64,000 nucleotides of DNA from Pedobacter faecalis (lineage in GTDB: Bacteria; Bacteroidota; Bacteroidia; Sphingobacteriales; Sphingobacteriaceae). The position numbers and the translations under genes were made by a program. The stretch is from positions 1,302,001 to 1,366,000 of the forward strand of contig NZ_JARXOW010000001.1 of assembly GCF_030182585.1 (NCBI RefSeq), given 5' to 3'. Each line of letters opens with the position of its first letter. The stretch's first letter is position 1. The notes beneath the pieces are model-generated. The model saw nothing but the letters and a program-made list of their open reading frames with translations. It searched no databases and was not told the origin of the DNA. Below are positions 43,623-54,721 of the stretch, piece by piece.

Positions 43623-44660
43623 TTACCACATTCTGGTCGTACTCAATACCTCATATACATTGTTGAGTTGTAAGCCCAAGACAATTTCGTGGCTCCCGTT
43701 GCTCACCGAATTCAGGGCTGACGTTGTAAAATCGTACGAGTAAGTGAGATTGATCAGTTTATTGAAGTTGACACCCAACAGGGCGGCAAAGGCGTCGTCT
43801 TTGCGATAACTCCCTCCCAGCCAGAAACGATCCTTAAATGCCAGCTTCAGGTTCAGATCGTACGACGCTGGCGCCGGCTTTACCTTTTTTAGCATCATGG
43901 AAGGTGTAGCGGCTACATCCTCTAGTAAAAAGAACCTGTACCCTGCGGTGAAAAAATAATGGGCTACTTCTTTGCCGGACACATAACCCGGGGCGTTCTG
44001 AAGATTGGGATTGTTGGTAAAGGTCATCTCCTGAGAGAGCAGTTGCTGGACTGACGCGCCGGCGAAGAACCGGGCGCCGTAGAGCCATACGCCCAAACCG
44101 AGATCTGGTTTAATCTGGCTGATGATGGCATTACGCACGGCCGGGTCCTGTGGATTGTCTTCACCAAAGTTGAGCGCAGCAACGTCTAGTCCGATGCGGG
44201 ATATGCCCGCGGAGACGCCGACCGACAGGTTCAGCTGGCCTGCCATCTGCATATGATAAGCGTAGGTAAGCGCTGCATCTAAGCGCGACAAAGGTCCGAT
44301 ATCGTCGAGCACAGCCATAACACCCATGCCATGGTGACTCGGCGAGGCGGTATAGTTCTGCATGTAGTTCCGGCTCATCGGATCGTCGCCATGATCGGGC
44401 AGCGAGAGCGGATTACGCCAAAGATAGTCATCACCAAACTTCCAGTGGGCCGACAAGAACGAAGTCTGAGGTGCATCGTTTATACCTGTCCATTGCTTGC
44501 GATGACCGACCTTCACGTCGGTATAATTTTCTATGCCACTGAGTGCAGGGTTAAGTAAAAAATTATTGAAAATGTACTGGGTATATTGAGGTCGTTGCTG
44601 AGCTATACCGTTATAGCAAAACAAGATGACAACGAGTGACGGAAGTATGAATCGTTTCAC
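43623..44660 (-). CDS. PorP/SprF-family type IX secretion-associated outer-membrane protein
   Basis: 345 residues with a signal peptide and the PorP/SprF family N-terminus QRPQYTQYIFNNFLLNPALSGIENYTDVKVGHRKQWTGINDAPQTSFLSAHW. It is beta-barrel-like throughout and ends with a strand-like LGLQLNNVYEV. SprF partners are needed for surface anchoring of the adhesin SprB in gliding bacteria. The start is GTG, overlapping by one base the stop of the upstream secreted protein gene, so the two are a secretion/cargo pair. Confidence 0.85.
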   Translation of the reverse strand: MKRFILPSLVVILFCYNGIAQQRPQYTQYIFNNFLLNPALSGIENYTDVKVGHRKQWTGINDAPQTSFLSAHWKFGDDYLWRNPLSLPDHGDDPMSRNYMQNYTASPSHHGMGVMAVLDDIGPLSRLDAALTYAYHMQMAGQLNLSVGVSAGISRIGLDVAALNFGEDNPQDPAVRNAIISQIKPDLGLGVWLYGARFFAGASVQQLLSQEMTFTNNPNLQNAPGYVSGKEVAHYFFTAGYRFFLLEDVAATPSMMLKKVKPAPASYDLNLKLAFKDRFWLGGSYRKDDAFAALLGVNFNKLINLTYSYDFTTSALNSVSNGSHEIVLGLQLNNVYEVLSTTRMW

Positions 44661-47338
44661 TATCGTATAATGGTTAGAGGGCCAGTTACCGGTCTGCGCC
44701 CGTTGTTAGGATTGATAATATAGTAGTAAGTCCCCGCAGGCAAGGCCTGTTTATTGGAATTCCCGTCGAAAGGGGCCTTGTAACCAGCGCTGTAGAATAT
44801 ACGTGTACCGTAACGGTTAAATACTTCAACAGTGACCCGTGGGTAAGTTTCAATATACTTAAGTATCCAGGTATCGTTTACTCCATCGCCATTCGGACTA
44901 AAGCTGTTTGCCGGTTCTATGCGTGCCAGGACGTTGACCGTAACAGTTTCGGTGATAACACAGCCCCTGGCAGAAGTGATGGTTAAGGTGTATGTGCGAT
45001 CGTCTGTACCGGTGACAACCGGGTTAAGTATGTCGTCACGACTAAGGCCCTGAGCGGGCAACCACTTGTAGGTCAGATCAGTACCGCTTGCGGTTGCCTC
45101 TATCTGCTTTTCGCCTCCTTCATAAACATTTATCGTTTTAGTAATGGTCAGTGAAGGAGTTGGGCTGACCAGGATTGTCTGCTGCTTTGTTTCGGTACAG
45201 CCATTGCTGGTGTAGGTATACCGGATGGTATGCGCACCCGGACCAGCCAATCGAGGATCAAACCTGCCATCGGCCGTTACACCAGTGCCGGAATAACGGC
45301 CGCTACCGGGCAACCCGCGTGTTTCCCGGGCCTGTGTCAGCACTACAATACCCGCTTCCTGGCAAACGCCCGGTATGGGATCAAATACGATCATCGGAGA
45401 CGGGTTTATGGTCACCGTGATGGTCTTTTCAAAAACATCGGAAAGACAGCCATCCTGTAAGCCTGCCGACAGCTTTACGGTATAGTTATACGTACCGATC
45501 TGCGTATATCTGTGTACGGGGTTTTGCTCGGTGGATACGCCGCCGTCGCCAAAATCCCATATCCACTTGTTTACCGGCTGATCGGGCAGCAGCGAGTTGC
45601 TGAGGTCGGTAAAAGCGATGCCCTGATTTTCGCAAGCTATCTCGGATGCAATGAAATCGGCCAGGGGGATCGGGTTTACGCCAAAGGAATAGTTATAGAT
45701 TTGCTGTGTAGCCAGGCAATTGCCTTGATTGGGCCGTTCGGCCTTTACGACCACCTGATGCACTATGCCTGTGTCTGCAAAGGCGCTATCGATAGCATAG
45801 ATATATTCATAGAGAATGATTCCGCTACCGCTGTTGACCACTGCATTAGGCGTGGCTTGTCCCTGCACCTCTGGTTCTGCATCGAGCTGCCAGCTGATCT
45901 CACTTACCAGATAAGGTAAAACGATCTTGAGGTTAGACTTCTGCCCTACGCAGGCGTCCTTGGCATCGAGTCCGGTAATGGTATTATTTACCAACAGGTA
46001 ATTATTCGCCGCCAGGTTGGTACCCGCCGAGTAAGCGTATGACTCGAACCGGCCGAATCCATAAGCTATCGCATTAAACCCATCGGAGGCCGATAGAGTT
46101 GAGCTCATCTCGGTAATATTGAGCTGGATGTATGAGTACTCCGGATTGCTGGATATAACCGTCCAAGTCGCGGCGGGCTGGTTCCCGTTGATGCGAAAAC
46201 TGGCCGTAGCGCTTGTCTTCATGCAAACGTTAATGTACTTCTCCAGAATACTCTGATCGTTTGAGGAGAACAAGGTGATCTCGCGTATATTAAACTCAAT
46301 GGGATTGAGCAGTACCATTTCAGGATCGCCGGTTGCTTCGCCAAAAAGACCTGAACATTCCTGGGTAAGTGAATACTGCGCTACGCTGATATTTTTGTCG
46401 GCCGATACAAGCATAGCTTCGGTGTGTTCGGTGCTGGCATCATAAAACTGGCCGCTGTTGAGTGTAAATGACGTATTGTTGATCGTTACGGTGGTGTTGT
46501 CTTCGCCTGCCAGGATCCTGAAATAATATTTTCGGTCTTTGAAAGGAATAATGCTATAGTTCTTTCCCCAACTGATGGTAGGATACAATTGCTGATAAAG
46601 TGGATCGAGCGAAGAAAAGCATCCTATATACAAGGCTGTGCTCCCTGAAAAAGCGGCAAAGCGTTTACTGCAGGAATTGGTCGACCCCGGGTCTATATCA
46701 ACTTTAACCCCGGTAAGGTCTTCCTGCCCTGGCGGAAGGTACTCATAGACATCGCCAGCCGTTGGCAGGGTTACCGACTGCACCGAGCCATCTTTTAAAT
46801 GTATGCGCAGGTGCGTATCGTCTTCGGTCGCGATAAGCGTGAGAAAATTTTTGTTGGTGAGCCCGTCTCCATTAGCCTGCGCATAGTTCATGGAATAATA
46901 GGTTTGCCCGAGTGCTTCCACCGGAAGGATCAACGAAGCGGCCGACCGTGCCCCCGCATAAATATGTGCATAGGCGGCAACTTTGGGCTGACCGGGGGTT
47001 ACGGAGATGCGTATAGCTCTGTTGTTCAATACCTGGTTGCTCTCGGCGGAGTCGATATAAGCCTCATTTCTTGGAACGTGAAATGGAACAGCTGTGTTGG
47101 CCGGAATATTCTGAGTAAGAGAAAAGCTTCCACAGGTAACGGTGGCTTCTGAATCAGACTTTGAAGTAAGGTATACAGTAATATTTGCCAGGCTGAAGCT
47201 TCCGCCAAGCCGCGAGGGATCATGCGTAGGGAACACGGCCCAGAATTCTGTGCCTTCGTTGGAGATATTCTGAGCCCGTACCGCCTGTATGAACAAGGAA
47301 TTAATCAATATTAAAAAGACTATATTCCATTGTTTCAT
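44660..47338 (-). CDS. T9SS-exported surface protein with IgGFc-binding-like and PKD domains
   Basis: 892 residues. A signal peptide (about 1-22) is followed by an N-terminal region (about 30-430, NEGTEFWAVFPTH...VTVYLTSK) resembling the IgGFc-binding N-terminal domain. A PKD-like segment (WDFGDGGVSTEQNPVHRYTQIGTYNYTVKLSA, near residue 580) follows. The C-terminal gliding-motility-type domain (from about NSFSPNGDGVNDTWIL near residue 807 to the end) directs type B type IX secretion. It is likely a cell-surface adhesin. The one-base stop/start overlap with the PorP-like gene supports a pair. Confidence 0.85.
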   Translation of the reverse strand: MKQWNIVFLILINSLFIQAVRAQNISNEGTEFWAVFPTHDPSRLGGSFSLANITVYLTSKSDSEATVTCGSFSLTQNIPANTAVPFHVPRNEAYIDSAESNQVLNNRAIRISVTPGQPKVAAYAHIYAGARSAASLILPVEALGQTYYSMNYAQANGDGLTNKNFLTLIATEDDTHLRIHLKDGSVQSVTLPTAGDVYEYLPPGQEDLTGVKVDIDPGSTNSCSKRFAAFSGSTALYIGCFSSLDPLYQQLYPTISWGKNYSIIPFKDRKYYFRILAGEDNTTVTINNTSFTLNSGQFYDASTEHTEAMLVSADKNISVAQYSLTQECSGLFGEATGDPEMVLLNPIEFNIREITLFSSNDQSILEKYINVCMKTSATASFRINGNQPAATWTVISSNPEYSYIQLNITEMSSTLSASDGFNAIAYGFGRFESYAYSAGTNLAANNYLLVNNTITGLDAKDACVGQKSNLKIVLPYLVSEISWQLDAEPEVQGQATPNAVVNSGSGIILYEYIYAIDSAFADTGIVHQVVVKAERPNQGNCLATQQIYNYSFGVNPIPLADFIASEIACENQGIAFTDLSNSLLPDQPVNKWIWDFGDGGVSTEQNPVHRYTQIGTYNYTVKLSAGLQDGCLSDVFEKTITVTINPSPMIVFDPIPGVCQEAGIVVLTQARETRGLPGSGRYSGTGVTADGRFDPRLAGPGAHTIRYTYTSNGCTETKQQTILVSPTPSLTITKTINVYEGGEKQIEATASGTDLTYKWLPAQGLSRDDILNPVVTGTDDRTYTLTITSARGCVITETVTVNVLARIEPANSFSPNGDGVNDTWILKYIETYPRVTVEVFNRYGTRIFYSAGYKAPFDGNSNKQALPAGTYYYIINPNNGRRPVTGPLTIIR

Positions 47339-47356: not shown

Positions 47357-47824
47357 CTATGAAAGCAGGTTTTGACGGAGCAGGAACTCTAACTGCTTAT
47401 TGGCCAGCAATAGTTGTTCCGTAAGTTCTCGGTTCTCTTTGCGGAGCGCATATATTTCATATGCCTTTTCAATATTAATACGCAGGTCTTCGTCCATCCA
47501 GGGTTTTTGTATGTACTTATATACTTGCCCTTTATTAATTGCATCTATAACCGCATTAATATCAGCATAGCCGGTAAGCAAGATTCTTATCGGGTCTGGA
47601 AAATCTGGTATAATAGATTCCAGGAACTCAATTCCGGTCATGACAGGCATCCGCTGGTCAGTGATGATCACATGAATATTTTCAGACTCCAGTATCTTCC
47701 TTCCCTCTACTGCCGATTCTGCAGTAAAAACATTAAACAACCTCCTAAATCCGGCCTTAAAAGAGTTCAGGTTATGAACTTCATCGTCTACGTACAAAAC
47801 ACTTATTAATGTATCTGAACTCAT
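47357..47824 (-). CDS. stand-alone response regulator (HupR/RpfG-type receiver)
   Basis: 155 residues. The receiver domain has Asp13-Asp14, phospho-acceptor Asp56 (ITDQRMP) and Lys-Pro near residue 107 (KYIQKPW), followed by a short C-terminal helix. It has no effector domain. It is closely similar to the receiver of the REC-kinase at 53221 (shared FRAGFRR-type segment, LLTGY, KPW), so the two are paralogues in one locus. The ATG at 47824 is preferred to the GTG at 47830. Divergent from the E1-nitroreductase gene. Confidence 0.85.
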   Translation of the reverse strand: MSSDTLISVLYVDDEVHNLNSFKAGFRRLFNVFTAESAVEGRKILESENIHVIITDQRMPVMTGIEFLESIIPDFPDPIRILLTGYADINAVIDAINKGQVYKYIQKPWMDEDLRINIEKAYEIYALRKENRELTEQLLLANKQLEFLLRQNLLS

Positions 47825-47860
47825 ATCCACAAAATATTTTTGTTAAATATATCACTTTCG

Positions 47861-47878
47861 GGTGTTTTTTTAAACACC
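47861..47878. repeat. 7-bp inverted repeat in the divergent intergenic region
   Basis: GGTGTTT-TTTT-AAACACC, between the divergent response-regulator and E1-nitroreductase genes. It could be an operator controlling both directions. There is no T-run on either side sufficient for a terminator. Confidence 0.4.
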
Positions 47879-48044
47879 TGTCTATAATTTCAGTATTTGA
47901 TTCAGTAGCGGCAAACAAATAAACAAACACTGCTGCCAGCCAATAAAAAGTTAAACATACATTTTTATAATAACCTTTAAAACCCTAATTTTAGTAGATT
48001 TTAACGGGTACCGTAATACCTGCTAGGGCATAACTAATCGACAC

Positions 48045-50357
48045 ATGCATTTTCTTAAAGACAACAACACTTTTCTTAAAGAGGCTATTCTGACTACTGA
48101 ACTTCAAAACGATGTTTATCTTCCGACATTTTTCCGTATTAATAAGGAAGAAGATGAAACAGCATTGAAGGATCTGCTGCTCAGCGCACCTCATATCCAG
48201 GTGTTTGACACAATCTACCACCAGTTGAAAGACCTGATCAAGTCGATAAACCCTAACAGGGTCCTCGACGATCGGTCGATACGACAAGCTATTGAAGCGC
48301 ATTTGAACGGAACGGACATATCTGTATATGGCGTTTGGGTGTATTACCCCTGGCTTGGCAAAGTGGTGCATATTCTGGATGAACAGGAGTATATTACGGT
48401 ACGGACCAATCGCAATAAGCATAAAATAACGCAGGAAGAGCAGGACCGGCTTGCCGAGAAAAAAATCGGTGTCATCGGTCTTTCTGTTGGTCAGTCGGTT
48501 TCACTGACCCTGGCCATAGAACGCGGCTTTGGAGAGTTGCGGATTGCAGACTTCGATACCCTGGACCTGACAAACCTTAACCGCATTCGTTGTGGGGTAC
48601 ATAATGTAAACCTCAAAAAGACCGTGATCGTAGCTCGCGAGATCGCCGAGATTGATCCTTTCTTAAAAGTAGTTCCTTTTCATGAGGGCATTACGGAAAA
48701 TAACCTGGAAGAGTTTCTTGCAGGAAACGGAAAACTGAACCTTCTTATTGACGAGTGTGACAGTATAGATATAAAGATCAATTGCCGGGTAAAGGCGCGG
48801 GAAATGGGCATACCCGTGGTTATGGAGGCGAGCGACAGGGGAACGATTGACATTGAACGGTTTGACCTTGAGCCTGAACGGCCAATTCTACATGGCTCTG
48901 TGGCACATTTGGACATTAGCCGCGTAAAAGACCTCAAAACGAGTGAAGAAAAGCTTCCTTATATGGTGCCCATCAGCGGACTCGAAACTTTATCGCCCCG
49001 CATGAAAGCTTCAGCTATTGAGATCATGCAAACCATTACCACATGGCCGCAGTTATCAAGCGCCGTAACTTACGGGGGCGGTATCACAGCTGATCTTTCG
49101 AGAAAGATATTACTTGACTCCCTGCATGTTTCCGGGAGGTTTTTTATTGATATAGACGAACTGATCAGCGATCCACCCAAAGAAAGGGAACTGCAGCAGC
49201 AGGCTACACCTCCTTTAACAGTGGACGATATGGACAGAATGTCGGCTTCGAGCAGCGTTTCAGATGGCGAGCCGCTTGGCAGTGAAGAACTGGAACTGAT
49301 GGTAACAGCAGCCGGCCTGGCACCTTCGGGTGGTAACAGTCAGCCCTGGAAATGGCACTATAAGAATAATATACTGCACTTATTTTTCGATAAGTCGTGT
49401 TCAGACGCATTTCTGGACTTCAATGATACTTCGTCGATGATTTCCCTGGGTGCAGCCATTGAGAACCTTTTGCTTACTGCCGAAAAAGAAAGGCTGGAGG
49501 TGATCTGGGAATACGCTTCATCTGGTTTCCCTACGCATGTGGCATCATTCAGATTCAAAAAAAATAAGGAGGCGCCATCGGAATTATCGCTTAAACTTGC
49601 CGCCCAGATCGGAAACCGGCATACCAACAGAAAGAACAGTTCCAGGGTACTGATGGCACCCGAAGAAATGCACCATTTGTCGAAGGTCGTTACAGATGTA
49701 CCTGGCGCTGAGATAGAATGGGTGTTTGATGTAAAACGCCAGCAGCAGATTGGCGAGATAGTGGCGGAGACCGATTTGATGCGGTTCTTTACGCCCGAGG
49801 CCCATTGGGATTTTATCCACAGGGAAATGCGCTGGACACCTGAGGAGGTTCAATCCAGAAAGGACGGGATCGGTGTGCATACGCTTGATCTCGGCATGAA
49901 CGATTTGATTGGTCTCCGTCTGCTTAAGGATCCGCAGGCGATTGACTTCCTCAAAAAGATTAACGGTGGTACGGTGTTTAAGAAAGTATCCGTAACACAA
50001 ATGGCTACGGCGTCGGCAATCGGGCTGGTGACGATGCCTACCATCGCCAATCAAGATTTCCTGGAAGGTGGCCGTGCTGTGGAGCGATTATGGCTGGCAG
50101 CCTCAGCTTATGGTTATCAAATGCACCCATTGTCTGTTCCTCTGGCCTTCTTTTACAGAAACATCCATGGCAAGGGTGCCGGACTAGATCGCGATACTTC
50201 TGCCCACCTAACTGAGTTAAGACGAAAATTCTGTCAGATTTTTGACACCAATGATGAAAAAGCTGAGATATTTTTGTTCAGGCTCTTCAAAGCTTCTGAT
50301 TCGGAAATGAGAACGATCCGCAAACCCATTAAAGACACACTAAGTATTGGAAACTAA
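48045..50357 (+). CDS. E1-like (ThiF) / nitroreductase fusion protein (Rv1355c-like)
   Basis: 770 residues. The first 130 residues are a helical leader. An E1/ThiF-type adenylating domain follows (about 135-350, GVIGLSVGQSV and LTNLNRIRCGVHN), with the Arg of NLNR but no CxxC zinc pairs. Then comes a nitroreductase/FMN domain (about 410-740, SGGNSQPWKW near 428-437 and TMPTIANQDFLEGGRAVERLWLAA). This architecture occurs in the poorly described Rv1355c family, where the E1-like part is expected to activate a carboxylate with ATP and the flavin part to oxidise or reduce it. Substrate unknown. ATG 48045. It overlaps the next gene by 11 bases. Confidence 0.75.
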   Translation: MHFLKDNNTFLKEAILTTELQNDVYLPTFFRINKEEDETALKDLLLSAPHIQVFDTIYHQLKDLIKSINPNRVLDDRSIRQAIEAHLNGTDISVYGVWVYYPWLGKVVHILDEQEYITVRTNRNKHKITQEEQDRLAEKKIGVIGLSVGQSVSLTLAIERGFGELRIADFDTLDLTNLNRIRCGVHNVNLKKTVIVAREIAEIDPFLKVVPFHEGITENNLEEFLAGNGKLNLLIDECDSIDIKINCRVKAREMGIPVVMEASDRGTIDIERFDLEPERPILHGSVAHLDISRVKDLKTSEEKLPYMVPISGLETLSPRMKASAIEIMQTITTWPQLSSAVTYGGGITADLSRKILLDSLHVSGRFFIDIDELISDPPKERELQQQATPPLTVDDMDRMSASSSVSDGEPLGSEELELMVTAAGLAPSGGNSQPWKWHYKNNILHLFFDKSCSDAFLDFNDTSSMISLGAAIENLLLTAEKERLEVIWEYASSGFPTHVASFRFKKNKEAPSELSLKLAAQIGNRHTNRKNSSRVLMAPEEMHHLSKVVTDVPGAEIEWVFDVKRQQQIGEIVAETDLMRFFTPEAHWDFIHREMRWTPEEVQSRKDGIGVHTLDLGMNDLIGLRLLKDPQAIDFLKKINGGTVFKKVSVTQMATASAIGLVTMPTIANQDFLEGGRAVERLWLAASAYGYQMHPLSVPLAFFYRNIHGKGAGLDRDTSAHLTELRRKFCQIFDTNDEKAEIFLFRLFKASDSEMRTIRKPIKDTLSIGN

Positions 50358-51072
50358 CAAACCAAAAATAGATAAACTGCAGTTCCGGGCTTTCAGGGCT
50401 GTGGACGAAAGGCAGACCTGCCTTAAATTTGTAGAAGGGCATACTAAGGTTCTGGAGATATTCGGGATCACGCAGATCACATCTGCTAAGATTGACTGGA
50501 TGCTGAATCCGAACGTTTATCTCGTGGTTGTAACAGCCGAAGATGACGACAGAATTCTGGCTGGCGGAAGAATACAGATCGCCGATGATAAATTTCCACT
50601 TCCCATTGAAGATGCAGTGGGCTATATCGATGATCGCATTTACAAGATGGTGATGGAGGAAAACACGCTGGTTACAGGAGAATGCTGCGGACTGTGGAAT
50701 TCATGGGAAGTTGCGGGGCTAGGTATCGGCAGTATCTTTCTAGGCCGTACATGTGTTGCCATTACCGAACAGTTAAAGATGAAATCACTTTTTGCTTTGT
50801 GTGCGCCTGCTACTTATCGAAACTGCATCCGCACGGGCTTCAGGGTAATTGACAACATTGGCAACAAAGGCAAGTTTTATTATCCAAAAGAAGACCTCAC
50901 GGCGACAGCCCTTATTATAGACGATGTTATTACGTTGGACAACACATTCCCGGAAGAGCGGGAGGCCATTATGGAACTCAGGAACAACCTGGTTATGGAT
51001 AAAACGGTAGAGACCAAACATGGTCCTATTGATATACATTTTGACTTAAGAATCAAAGGCATCACATCTTGA
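50347..51072 (+). CDS. GNAT-fold protein resembling N-acyl amino acid / autoinducer synthases
   Basis: 241 residues. The middle reads like a GNAT motif A-B region (GECCGLWNSWEVAGLGIGSIFLGRTCVAITEQLKMKSLFALCAPATYRNCIRTGFRVI, about 115-175). The ordering (VVVTAEDDDRILAGGRIQ, then the E-C-C-G-L region) is reminiscent of acyl-homoserine-lactone and N-acyl amino acid synthases, but the match is by eye. The start is TTG at 50347, overlapping the E1-nitroreductase stop by 11 bases, and its own stop overlaps the kinase start by 4, so it is translationally coupled on both sides. Confidence 0.55.
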   Translation: METNKPKIDKLQFRAFRAVDERQTCLKFVEGHTKVLEIFGITQITSAKIDWMLNPNVYLVVVTAEDDDRILAGGRIQIADDKFPLPIEDAVGYIDDRIYKMVMEENTLVTGECCGLWNSWEVAGLGIGSIFLGRTCVAITEQLKMKSLFALCAPATYRNCIRTGFRVIDNIGNKGKFYYPKEDLTATALIIDDVITLDNTFPEEREAIMELRNNLVMDKTVETKHGPIDIHFDLRIKGITS

Positions 51073-53210
51073 AGAGGTTTACATTTTTGATCGGCATGCT
51101 GATCATGACCGTGTGGTCGGTATGCAATGCTCATGACAACATCGCAGATTCTAACGTTCAACGCACTACCGACCTGGGCGAGCGCGCCTGGTTGCTCCCG
51201 CCCCGCGAAGGCAACGACCGGATCGAGGACATCCGAAAATCTGACTGGTTTTACCGGAGCGACAGCAAAGTCATTAATTTTGGCATCTCTAAAAATGCCG
51301 GCTGGGTAAAACTCCATATGACTTCGCCGAAGCAGGACAACGCCGTTCTGCTTATAGAGCAATCGAGGTTGATGACCCCGGAATGCTATGTGGTTACTAA
51401 TGACAACCTGATAAGGCGTGTGCCTGTGACGGCCATTAAAGACGTTCCTAACCGTCAATGGCCGGGAACCGGATTTATAGCTAACCTGCCAAACATTCCA
51501 GGCACAGATTCTTATGAGGTTTTCATTAAACTGATGAGCAATGAATTGCTTGTAACAACTTTGAAGGTAGGCACCAAGGAGTCTCTGAGCGGCGATCTGA
51601 TTTCAAAAGAGATGCTCTTCGGCTTGTATTCCGGAATCATGTTTGTGATGCTGATCTACAATTCATTCCTGTACATCTCGGTACGCGACAGAAGTTACAT
51701 TTATTACGTGCTGTACATTTTGTCGATCTGGCTCACACAAATCTCCATTTCGGGCTTTGCCAGCAAATATCTGTGGTTAAATAATGATTGGCTTGCGGCA
51801 AACTCGGTAAGTGTGTTCTCGTCGCTTTCGGGGATCACTGCCTTTATCTTTATTAAGGAATTCCTTAATATCGGCAAGTACGAGAAACTCCTCTCTCGAC
51901 TGATTTATTTTAACCTGTCTACCTTTTCGCTTAGCCTCTGTTTTACCCTTTTCGGGGCCAGACATCTGGACTTTATTACGATGCAGCTGGCCACTTTCGT
52001 GGGCTCATTGATTGCCTTATATATCGGCTTCATTGTATACAAACAAGGCTTTGCCCCCGCAAAATATTTCCTGATCGCCTGGTCGTTATTACTGGTAGGT
52101 GCATGTTTGTTTATCATGAAAGATTACAACATTATTCCGTACAATAATGTAACGATTTATATCCTGCAGATCGCTTCTGCAACCGAAGTCACTTTACTGT
52201 CGTTTGCCCTTGCCGATAAGATCAATATCTTTAAAAGAGAGAAGGAAGAGTCGCAAGCGCGTGCGCTTGAAGTTGTAACGGAGAATGAGAAATTGGTAAG
52301 GGAACAAAACGTGCTGCTCGAAATCAAGGTAAAAGAACGTACAGAGGCTCTTGAAACAGCTAATGATACGTTGAATGCCACGCTTACTGACCTGAAGGAA
52401 GCTCAGTCGCAGTTGGTGGATCAGGAAAAGATGGCCGGGCTAGGACAATTGACGGCGGGTATCGCCCATGAGATCAATAACCCGATCAATTTTGTGACCT
52501 CCAATATAAAGCCTCTCGAACTGGATATCAACGACCTTAACGATGTTATCCAAATGTACGAAAAGCTGGATCCGGAAAAAGACCTCCAGTCTCAAATCAG
52601 TGCGATCGAATCTTTCAAGAAACGTATCGATTTGAATTTTGTAAGGGAAGAGATCAAATCCTTGCTTTCCGGTATCGGTGAAGGCGCTAAACGTACGGCC
52701 GAGATCATCAGAAGTCTTAAAAATTTCAGCCGGCTGGACGAGAACGACACCAAGCCTGTCAACATTGCTGAAGGGCTCGATTCTACGCTGGTGCTGATCA
52801 GAAGTACCTTCCCGGGAAACCTTAAAATTATTAAAGACTATCAGCCCGTTCCGGAAGTCGAATGCATGCCGGGCAAGATCAATCAGGTGTTCATGAACCT
52901 GATGTCGAACGCTGTCCACGCCATAAAGTCTAAACCGGTACAAAATGAAGAAGAGTTTATCTCCCTCAAAACATGGCAGGAAGGGGATCATGTAAAAATA
53001 AGCATTAAAGATTCAGGAACCGGTATGCCGGATTCCGTCAAACAAAAGATATTTGAGCCGTTTTTTACAACCAAGGACGTTGGTGAGGGAACAGGCCTCG
53101 GTTTATCCATCGTTTTCAGGATTATCGAAAACCACAGGGGCACAATTGATGTTGTAACAAAAGTTAATGAAGGTACCGAATTTATTATTAACTTGCCTAT
53201 AAAACATTAA
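51069..53210 (+). CDS. 7TMR-DISM histidine kinase
   Basis: 713 residues. A signal sequence (about 3-22) is followed by a periplasmic 7TMR-DISM extracellular domain (about 25-170). Seven membrane segments (about 190-390, GLYSGIMFVMLIYNSFLYISVRDRSYIYYVLYIL at the start) and a coiled coil come next. The HisKA domain has phospho-acceptor His467 (GIAHEINNPINF), followed by an HATPase domain (about 590-712, GTGLGLSIVFRI). The DISM module binds small ligands in other bacteria. The start is TTG at 51069, overlapping the preceding TGA stop. Confidence 0.88.
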   Translation: MKRFTFLIGMLIMTVWSVCNAHDNIADSNVQRTTDLGERAWLLPPREGNDRIEDIRKSDWFYRSDSKVINFGISKNAGWVKLHMTSPKQDNAVLLIEQSRLMTPECYVVTNDNLIRRVPVTAIKDVPNRQWPGTGFIANLPNIPGTDSYEVFIKLMSNELLVTTLKVGTKESLSGDLISKEMLFGLYSGIMFVMLIYNSFLYISVRDRSYIYYVLYILSIWLTQISISGFASKYLWLNNDWLAANSVSVFSSLSGITAFIFIKEFLNIGKYEKLLSRLIYFNLSTFSLSLCFTLFGARHLDFITMQLATFVGSLIALYIGFIVYKQGFAPAKYFLIAWSLLLVGACLFIMKDYNIIPYNNVTIYILQIASATEVTLLSFALADKINIFKREKEESQARALEVVTENEKLVREQNVLLEIKVKERTEALETANDTLNATLTDLKEAQSQLVDQEKMAGLGQLTAGIAHEINNPINFVTSNIKPLELDINDLNDVIQMYEKLDPEKDLQSQISAIESFKKRIDLNFVREEIKSLLSGIGEGAKRTAEIIRSLKNFSRLDENDTKPVNIAEGLDSTLVLIRSTFPGNLKIIKDYQPVPEVECMPGKINQVFMNLMSNAVHAIKSKPVQNEEEFISLKTWQEGDHVKISIKDSGTGMPDSVKQKIFEPFFTTKDVGEGTGLGLSIVFRIIENHRGTIDVVTKVNEGTEFIINLPIKH

Positions 53211-53220
53211 TACTCCTTTT

Positions 53221-54300
53221 ATGAGCACGCAGACCATACGTGTCCTGTACATCGATGACGAGGAAAGTAACCTGGTGGCTTTCCGGGCAGGTTTCAGAAG
53301 ACAGTATGAGATATATACTGCGCTTTCTGCGGTTGAGGGCATAGAGCTGCTGGAGAATGTTGAAATCCATGTCATACTGGCCGATCAGAAAATGCCTGAA
53401 ATAACAGGGGTTGAGTTTTTTAGGCGCATTTCGGAAACCTTTCCAGACCCGGTTCGTATATTACTGACAGGCTACACAAATATAGAGGCGCTCGCCGACG
53501 CCATAAACCACGGCGACGTATATAGGTATGTAACCAAACCCTGGAACGATCTGGAACTTCACAATTCGATCAAAAATGCGTACGACGCTTACAAAGCCAA
53601 AATTGATCTGAGGAACAAGGTAGCTGAACTGGAAAAAACAAATGATGAGTTGAACCGGTTTATCTACAGTATATCGCACGAGCTTCGCGCACCTCTTGTT
53701 TCTACGATGGGCGTTGTTAATCTGGTAAAGATGGAAGGCTTGTACGACTCATGCGGCGAATACTGGGGCCTGATCGAGTCGTGTTCCAACAAACTGGATT
53801 ATTATATCCAGAAAACACTGCAGTATTATAAAAACAACAAGGTAGCTTCCGAGAATTCGCTGGTAAGTTTCAATGCGCTCGTCAGTGAGCTCGTTGACCT
53901 TTATGCGTATACAGATACGGATACCAAGTTTGATTTAAACATCCGGCAAACAGGTCCGTTTTACGGCGATGCATTTCGCATAGAGGTAATCCTTGGCAAC
54001 CTGATTTCAAACGCCATCCGATACCAGAAAGAGGATGAACAAAACAAGAGGGTAAGCATCAGCGTCCTTGCTACGGAGGAGGCAGCGGAGATTATCATCA
54101 GCGACAACGGCGTGGGTATACTTAATGAGCATCTGGAAAAGATTTTCACGCAGTTTTTTAAAACGAAGACAAATCACGGAACAGGGCTCGGGCTCTTCAT
54201 TGTGAAGGAGGCCCTGAACAAAATCAACGGCAGGATCTCTGTGACTTCAAGTGATCTGGAGGGTACAACTTTTAAAATATTTATTCCTAATGTCAAGTAA
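53221..54300 (+). CDS. receiver-histidine kinase protein (REC-HisKA-HATPase)
   Basis: 359 residues in the reversed order: an N-terminal receiver (Asp55 in ADQKMP, Lys106-Pro107) with a linker helix, then HisKA with His153 (FIYSISHELRAPLV) and an HATPase domain (NLISNAIRY, NHGTGLGLFIVKEALN). It can take phosphate from an upstream kinase and act as a kinase itself, a relay layout. Its receiver is a close paralogue of the stand-alone regulator at 47357. It overlaps the next regulator by 11 bases. Confidence 0.88.
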   Translation: MSTQTIRVLYIDDEESNLVAFRAGFRRQYEIYTALSAVEGIELLENVEIHVILADQKMPEITGVEFFRRISETFPDPVRILLTGYTNIEALADAINHGDVYRYVTKPWNDLELHNSIKNAYDAYKAKIDLRNKVAELEKTNDELNRFIYSISHELRAPLVSTMGVVNLVKMEGLYDSCGEYWGLIESCSNKLDYYIQKTLQYYKNNKVASENSLVSFNALVSELVDLYAYTDTDTKFDLNIRQTGPFYGDAFRIEVILGNLISNAIRYQKEDEQNKRVSISVLATEEAAEIIISDNGVGILNEHLEKIFTQFFKTKTNHGTGLGLFIVKEALNKINGRISVTSSDLEGTTFKIFIPNVK

Positions 54301-54694
54301 AGCAAGAAAGGTCATGCTGATAGATGACAATGAAATTGACTTAAAGATCAATTCTAAGGTCATCAATATCTCTAAGCTGTTTGACCAGATTATAACCTGT
54401 CAGTCGGGAGACGAAGCCTTATCTTATTTAAACAGGAACCTCGATGACGAAGATAACCTGCCCGACTTTATTCTACTGGATATCCAGATGCCGGAAATGG
54501 ATGGCTTTGATTTTCTGGAGATTTTCAAAAACTTCCCGGATCGGGTAAAAAGTAAATGCCTTATTGCCATACTATCGTCTACACTGGACTTTGGCGATAT
54601 TAAGCGCGCCGAGGCCAACCCTTACGTTATTAAACTCCTTAAAAAGCCGCTCTTCCCCACCGAACTTCAGGAAGTCCTGGATAAGTACTTATAA
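54290..54694 (+). CDS. stand-alone response regulator, last gene of the E1-nitroreductase locus
   Basis: 134 residues. The receiver has Asp12-Asp13, phospho-acceptor Asp64 (LLDIQMPEM) and Lys-Lys-Pro near residue 120. It has no effector domain, so it probably works by protein-protein contact. A frame upstream to 54251 overlaps the kinase gene; ATG 54290 opens MSSKARKVMLIDDNE. A terminator follows the stop. Confidence 0.88.
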   Translation: MSSKARKVMLIDDNEIDLKINSKVINISKLFDQIITCQSGDEALSYLNRNLDDEDNLPDFILLDIQMPEMDGFDFLEIFKNFPDRVKSKCLIAILSSTLDFGDIKRAEANPYVIKLLKKPLFPTELQEVLDKYL

Positions 54695-54697
54695 AAA

Positions 54698-54721
54698 AAA
54701 GCCATCTTTTCAGATGGCTTT
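54698..54721. terminator. bidirectional terminator between the signalling locus and the tRNA
   Basis: A 9-bp stem AAAGCCATC / GATGGCTTT with a six-base loop (TTTTCA). On the minus strand it is followed by eight T residues, giving a strong terminator for the tRNA. On the plus strand only a short T-run follows, giving a weaker terminator for the regulator gene. Confidence 0.85.

Follow-up and report, generated by a model that had tools for sequence, protein, structure and literature searches.

A retained gene cassette of Pedobacter faecalis and its relatives, with a proposed role in making and sensing a tailored N-acyl aromatic amino acid

Organization of the cassette

In our study, a window of 64,000 nucleotides from Pedobacter faecalis (contig NZ_JARXOW010000001.1, positions 1,302,001 to 1,366,000) was found to contain a cassette of five plus-strand open reading frames (ORFs) and one divergent receiver gene, at places confirmed by an ORF check (Table 1). 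At its centre is a protein of 241 amino acids, called the synthase here. Its gene stands between those of an E1-like enzyme fused to a flavin oxidase and of a 7TMR-DISM histidine kinase, followed by the genes of a kinase with a receiver domain (REC-kinase) and of a last, stand-alone receiver. The synthase gene starts with TTG and overlaps the E1-oxidase gene by 11 bases, the DISM kinase gene overlaps the synthase gene by 4 bases, and a gap of 10 bases precedes the REC-kinase gene. The mechanical ORF of the last receiver starts at GTG 54251; the ATG at 54290 yields an 11-base overlap with the REC-kinase gene, which was also present in the relative L004. The borders given in the initial annotation were verified, the last of them through this ATG, and its domain calls (ThiF and Nitroreductase in the fusion, 7TMR-DISM kinase, REC-kinase and REC) were matched in the domain scan. 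The junctions were also tight in the relatives described below, with at most 60 nucleotides between the synthase and DISM kinase genes in 62 of 64 loci and, likewise, between the REC-kinase and last receiver genes in 71 of 71.

The catalytic residues of the kinase chain were conserved. The histidine of the DISM kinase (His467) was found in 89 of 91 rows, the other two having a gap. The REC-kinase contained its phospho-site histidine in 85 of 86 rows (one with Glu) and its receiver Asp in all 86, and the phospho-acceptor Asp was present in every row of the divergent receiver (77/77) and of the last receiver (71/71). The divergent receiver had been called a paralogue. Its match in the near-identical locus L003 was 148 bits with the REC-kinase, but only about 20 bits with the last receiver. 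A second divergent receiver gene, in tandem with the first, was present in L041, L042, L046 and L049.

Table 1. Features of the cassette in the window
Feature	Position	Strand	Evidence
Divergent receiver (REC and C-terminal helix), without output domain	47357..47830	-	Response_reg 63 bits
Divergent intergenic region, presumed control region	47831..48044	.	214 bp, 30% GC
E1-like (ThiF) cyclase fused to Acg-type flavin oxidase, TrzS/Rv1355c family	48045..50357	+	NCBIfam NF005901
Flavin oxidase (nitroreductase-superfamily) half, borders approximate	49251..50345	+	NF011424 residues 403-762, NF047509 419-700
FeeM/LuxI-fold acyltransferase, 241 amino acids, proposed N-acyl amino acid synthase, core gene	50347..51072	+	
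7TMR-DISM histidine kinase, proposed receptor	51069..53210	+	7TMR-DISMED2, 7TMR-DISM_7TM, HATPase_c
REC-HisKA-HATPase_c kinase	53221..54300	+	Response_reg, HisKA, HATPase_c
Stand-alone receiver, 134 amino acids from ATG	54290..54694	+	Response_reg
Terminator-like 10-pair inverted repeat directly after the last gene	54698..54721	.	Consensus scan only; listed on minus strand

Retention of the cassette in relatives

Species-representative genomes were scanned for relatives of the synthase, which gave 311 loci; the best 80 were kept, so close relatives are favoured. The initial annotation had made its proposal depend on the genes being kept together in relatives, and they were found together. The DISM kinase was present beside the synthase in all 80 loci, the REC-kinase in 75, the last receiver in 68, the E1 enzyme in 68 and its oxidase half in 60. 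The divergent receiver, which the initial annotation placed correctly next to the five genes, was present in 69 of the 80 and belongs to the unit. In the 62 loci whose flanking sequence extended to 4 kb or more upstream and 6 kb or more downstream, the DISM kinase was found in 62, the REC-kinase in 61, the last receiver and the divergent receiver in 57 each, the E1 enzyme in 55 and the oxidase half in 47.

Neighbourhood by general synteny, with no common function of the genes, would also place them side by side, and the three nearest upstream non-cassette neighbours were likewise kept in 28-30 of the 80 loci. The six downstream neighbours, however, were kept in only 0-6 loci, against 60-80 for the cassette genes. 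Joint presence is patchy inside the genus, and the flanks of the cassette differ in Chitinophaga, Taibaiella and Cytophagales loci. General synteny, hardly credible as an explanation, is ruled out by these flank controls and by retention across different flanks.

In an even sample of 296 genomes spread over the phylum, the window included, the synthase was found in 12 genomes and the REC-kinase (E up to 1e-60) in 11, all inside those 12; in the twelfth (L113) the REC-kinase is more diverged. The DISM kinase and the REC-kinase adjoined the synthase in 11 of the 11 loci fetched from this sample. Among 198 relatives, where the DISM kinase was called at E up to 1e-80, the synthase was present in 81 and the DISM kinase in 83 genomes: 80 contained both, 114 neither, one the synthase only and three the kinase only. 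Three of these four exceptions are due to contig ends: in the synthase-only genome the contig also carries a truncated kinase, and in two kinase-only genomes the kinase stands at a contig start, followed by the REC-kinase. In the remaining kinase-only genome, the match is confined to the kinase domain. These results support the synthase and the DISM kinase as the fixed members of the cassette, and the enzymes and the kinase chain as one retained unit. Two sequence sets were also assembled, A1 with 34 sequences drawn among the matches listed (120 of 388) and A2 with 36 sequences.

The synthase

No Pfam profile, that of LuxI included, matched the synthase at E up to 0.01, and neither did any NCBIfam profile. 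Its AlphaFold2 model (mean predicted local distance difference test score 89.5) has a GNAT/LuxI/FeeM-type fold, which bears out the GNAT fold suggested earlier, and the best matches of the model in the PDB were FeeM (2g0b) and N-acyl homoserine lactone (AHL) synthases. FeeM is 12% identical to the synthase, whose sequence matched no solved structure at an E-value below 0.02. Among 36 sequences, 23 positions were invariant, and the closest named record, from Pedobacter deserti, is 99% identical to the protein of the window. From the fold and the company it keeps, the protein is proposed to be an N-acyl amino acid synthase. For the oxazolone enzyme TyzA, too, FeeM and BjaI have been reported as the closest folds (PMC10404671).

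In L082 (8744-10708), one cassette contained two different synthase genes in tandem, 35% and 47% identical to that of the window. Identical synthases were found in the metagenome-assembled genomes L052 and L054; the former carries the label Azovibrio restrictus, probably through a binning error, and the latter that of an uncultured Bacteroides.

The E1-flavin oxidase fusion

The fusion matched NCBIfam NF005901 ('Rv1355c family') at 802 bits, against a curated cut-off of 476, and is 30-31% identical to three actinobacterial homologues. When its profile was compared with solved structures, the C-terminal half matched the Acg nitroreductase 2ymv best, and the E1 half the cyclase TcdA. Gly145, Arg180 and Asp239 of the window E1 were invariant in all 76 E1 rows examined. 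Asp239 aligns with an Asp in three actinobacterial Rv1355c-family proteins and, by this alignment, may be the counterpart of the ATP-contacting D217 of Mycobacterium smegmatis TrzS. Regarding Arg540/Gln651 of the flavin mononucleotide site, the likely Gln column, placed by an offset estimate only, holds Gln in three actinobacterial and Ser/Thr/Asn in four Bacteroidota fusions.

The initial annotation had held that Rv1355c-like fusions have no firm function. This is outdated, for Rv1355c is the tryptazolone synthase TrzS, which makes N-acyl tryptazolones with the acyltransferase TrzA: TrzA acylates tryptophan, and TrzS cyclises the product with ATP and then desaturates it with oxygen, as worked out in vitro with M. 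tuberculosis TrzA and M. smegmatis TrzS (PMC12856293). Its authors point to the likeness to AHLs and to adjoining cyclic-di-GMP genes (PMC12856293). Three approaches found no significant match between the synthase of the cassette and a TrzA-like protein, the latter taken as TrzA by position.

On two Rhodococcus plasmids (L097:1872-5965 and L100:1696-5944), GGDEF, probable TrzA and Rv1355c-family genes are adjacent, which resembles the arrangement in M. tuberculosis. A Streptomyces plasmid (L098:5929-7727) contained an E1 gene that lacks the oxidase part and shares 41% identity with the E1 region of the window. It overlaps a GNAT gene of another family (PF13302), an independent pairing of E1 and acyltransferase. 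The GNAT partner was rejected as a synthase relative for its different family.

The variable tailoring enzyme

The type of tailoring enzyme was scored in 91 loci, the best 80 and 11 from the even sample. The E1-oxidase fusion was found in 63 loci, E1 alone in 15, a flavin adenine dinucleotide (FAD) oxidase in six, a class I methyltransferase in four and an ICMT-type methyltransferase in one; two were uncertain owing to contig ends, and L017 and L060, where a contig end cuts the gene, were set to E1-oxidase by hand. Of the five-gene system first described, the synthase and the DISM kinase are constant, whereas the E1-nitroreductase is not fixed, being absent or untypable in 28 loci.

A search with one of these FAD oxidases, that of L047, gave matches to 4-cresol dehydrogenase (E 4.5e-60), eugenol oxidase (7e-44) and vanillyl-alcohol oxidase (3e-32). 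All six FAD oxidases kept the motif WGYG together with a C-terminal Tyr-Arg pair, which we take to be the phenol-binding residues of 4-cresol-dehydrogenase-type oxidases. Oxidases of this type act on para-alkyl phenols, which points to tyrosine; the amino acid is most likely aromatic, with tyrosine first. A branch of the N-acyl-cyclolysine (ACL) system, in which lysine is acylated, the E1 enzyme performs an ATP-dependent cyclisation and kinases replace the transcription factor, is a quite improbable alternative. Acylation and ATP-dependent cyclisation, as in the ACL pathway, would suit the synthase and the E1 enzyme, but the fused flavin desaturase and the 4-alkylphenol-type oxidase of the relatives fit an aromatic residue better than lysine. 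ACLs have been reported in Bacteroidota (review PMC13419125). N-acyl tyrosines and one N-acyl phenylalanine are produced by a strain of Olivibacter, which belongs to the Bacteroidetes (PMC8433624). Partial racemisation is a trace that easily epimerised oxazolones could leave.

Pairing of the tailoring enzyme with the sensor input

Module trees were built from 52 of the 91 loci. Near-identical Pedobacter and other rows were removed by a hand list, and uncertain types and loci without a full kinase, a REC-kinase or a single synthase (L056, L072 and L082 among them) were omitted; Pedobacter rows were likewise dropped from a 66-row synthase tree. All of these are quick trees, and some of their branches are long. 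The tailoring type had to change 15 times on the 66-row synthase tree. On the 52-row trees, 12 changes were needed for the synthase, the kinase domain and the REC-kinase, and nine for the sensor input and the seven-transmembrane (7TM) part. On the tree of the sensor input, the five FAD oxidase rows grouped as a single clade (support 99.5), whereas the approximately unbiased test, made on the quick trees, rejected such a clade for the synthase (p 2.7e-8), the kinase domain (9e-65) and the REC-kinase (1e-5).

The sensor is a mosaic, as the module identities from 18 hand-picked pairs show. Four cross pairs of E1-oxidase and FAD oxidase loci in one close group share 82-87% identity in the synthase and 78-82% in the kinase domain, whereas identity falls to 28-34% in the ectodomain and to 45-51% in the 7TM part. 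The three within-type pairs of that group share 45-72% in the ectodomain and 71-90% in the 7TM part. Over 390 pairs with a kinase-domain identity of at least 60%, the 7TM part was 5.3 points more alike within type when the kinase domain was allowed for, an excess reached by 0 of 2000 label shuffles, which ignore relatedness. E1 and E1-oxidase loci did not separate on the sensor tree. From these comparisons, the tailoring enzyme and the sensor input seem to travel as a pair.

Two points weigh against a sensor that is matched to the enzyme product. The ectodomain showed no within-type effect in the pairwise test of the 390 pairs, which leaves the pairing idea unsupported there. The FAD oxidase gene also lies immediately upstream of the sensor gene, so a single exchange could carry the oxidase together with the sensor input, and simple linkage could explain the pairing as well as selection for matching.

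Different kinase cues are also conceivable. The cassette may be an oxazolone or N-acyl amino acid operon, for an antibiotic, a surfactant or a membrane lipid, whose kinases respond to something unrelated, for instance envelope stress, and do not have the product as their ligand. Biosynthetic genes are often flanked by kinases, and the cassette contains no export or response gene; the stieleriacines, which are N-acyl tyrosines, alter biofilm communities (PMC12479983). With an unrelated cue, the sensor input should not follow the tailoring enzyme, whereas the oxidase-type loci share one input clade over differing synthase and kinase backgrounds. Regulation of the operon by its own kinases would also call for a regulator, and no DNA-binding domain was found in any cassette protein of the window by the domain scan. 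We hold this explanation to be unlikely.

Proposed circuit

In our view, the cassette probably both makes and senses an N-acyl aromatic amino acid that has been tailored and is probably derived from tyrosine. The gene set of the Pedobacter-Chitinophaga group seems to build a fatty amino-acid signal and to read it through a membrane sensor, which may serve either the sensing of a population or sensing within a single cell. The FeeM/LuxI-fold enzyme would join a fatty acyl group to an amino acid. The E1-flavin oxidase would then activate the carboxylate with ATP, close an oxazolone ring and desaturate it, as shown for its homologue TrzS; in relatives, E1 alone, a 4-alkylphenol-type flavin oxidase (desaturase) or methyltransferases would act instead. 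The less polar tailored product would be sensed by the extracellular and 7TM region of the DISM kinase, a step suggested by co-retention and by the joint swapping of the tailoring enzyme and the sensor input, which fits a kinase that reads the enzyme product. Phosphate may pass from this kinase to the divergent receiver, the REC-kinase and the last receiver, whose sites are conserved. The proposal of the initial annotation, that the enzymes make or modify a small molecule or peptide sensed by the kinase chain, is partly supported: the retained unit and the joint swapping agree with it, whereas nothing indicates a peptide substrate.

Because no cassette protein of the window has a DNA-binding domain, the output is placed outside the cassette and may run through partner proteins or through a regulator encoded elsewhere. 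A scan of eight flanking proteins revealed no output gene in common: two were TonB-dependent receptor-like, one was PorX-like and the rest shared nothing. In the window, a PorP/SprF-like gene (named by resemblance) and the gene of an IgGFc-binding/PKD/CHU_C type IX-secreted protein adjoin the cassette (43623-47338). They were kept in 29 and 30 of the 80 loci, respectively, and are a possible output in that lineage. In L105 (1872-3593), a gene for PglZ and a receiver (PorX-like) lies a few kb upstream of the cassette, and ORFs with similar weak receiver matches were found in L106, L110 and L111.

The presumed control region contained no pair of TTTG and TAnnTTTG, and a single TAnnTTTG was found at 47835. 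Six upstream regions were scanned for a -33/-7 promoter pair of the Bacteroidota type, and none had one; the sigma-70 scan gave 11 sites against 13.8 in shuffles, fewer than in shuffled sequence.

Relation to known systems and significance

A synthase together with a sensor kinase is a plan known from quorum sensing, as in LuxM-LuxN. From AHL synthase and sensor-kinase circuits (LasI/BjaI-type) the cassette differs in a synthase without Pfam match, in the added tailoring by E1, oxidase or methyltransferase, and in the DISM receptor. In the ACL system, sensing is reportedly carried out by the transcription factor AclR, whereas the cassette has a kinase chain. That system, the nearest rival among signalling systems, is acyl-amino-acid signalling in the same phylum (Linares-Otoya 2025, cited in PMC13419125).

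Like the cassette, TrzAS of Mycobacterium and Rhodococcus contains an E1-flavin oxidase of the same NCBIfam family and an adjacent acyltransferase gene, but no significant sequence match links the synthase to a TrzA-like protein; cyclic-di-GMP genes lie nearby, and the main text contains neither 'histidine kinase' nor 'two-component' (PMC12856293). The OxzAB/TyzACB oxazolone pathways likewise have a FeeM/BjaI-like acyltransferase, a ThiF cyclase and a nitroreductase-family oxidase, but occur in other phyla, and both terms are again absent from the main text (PMC10404671). The clusters for stieleriacine, kyonggic acid and thalassotalic acid contain NasY, ThiF, nitroreductase and methyltransferase, and the two terms are absent from that main text as well (PMC12479983). 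Among the matches listed from the open-licence PMC literature, no such cassette was described. The enzymes and the general plan of a synthase with a sensor kinase are known; the combination of a DISM receptor with swappable tailoring looks undescribed. We put forward only tentatively that this is a new Bacteroidota circuit, in which a FeeM/LuxI-fold synthase and a phosphorelay are fixed and the DISM receptor input is exchanged together with a swappable tailoring enzyme.

For oxazolones and N-acyl tyrosines the enzymes are known, but to our knowledge no bacterial receptor is, and we know of no ligand for most 7TMR-DISM receptors. The cassette places acyl-amino-acid enzymes and a DISM receptor in one operon, in named cultured species, and its natural swaps predict which chemical change each sensor should recognise. 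If true, the proposed circuit would add a kinase-sensed acyl-amino-acid signal to the N-acyl-cyclolysines that were recently reported from Bacteroidota. It would also agree with what the authors of the tryptazolone study suggested, namely a possible signalling role of such compounds (PMC12856293).
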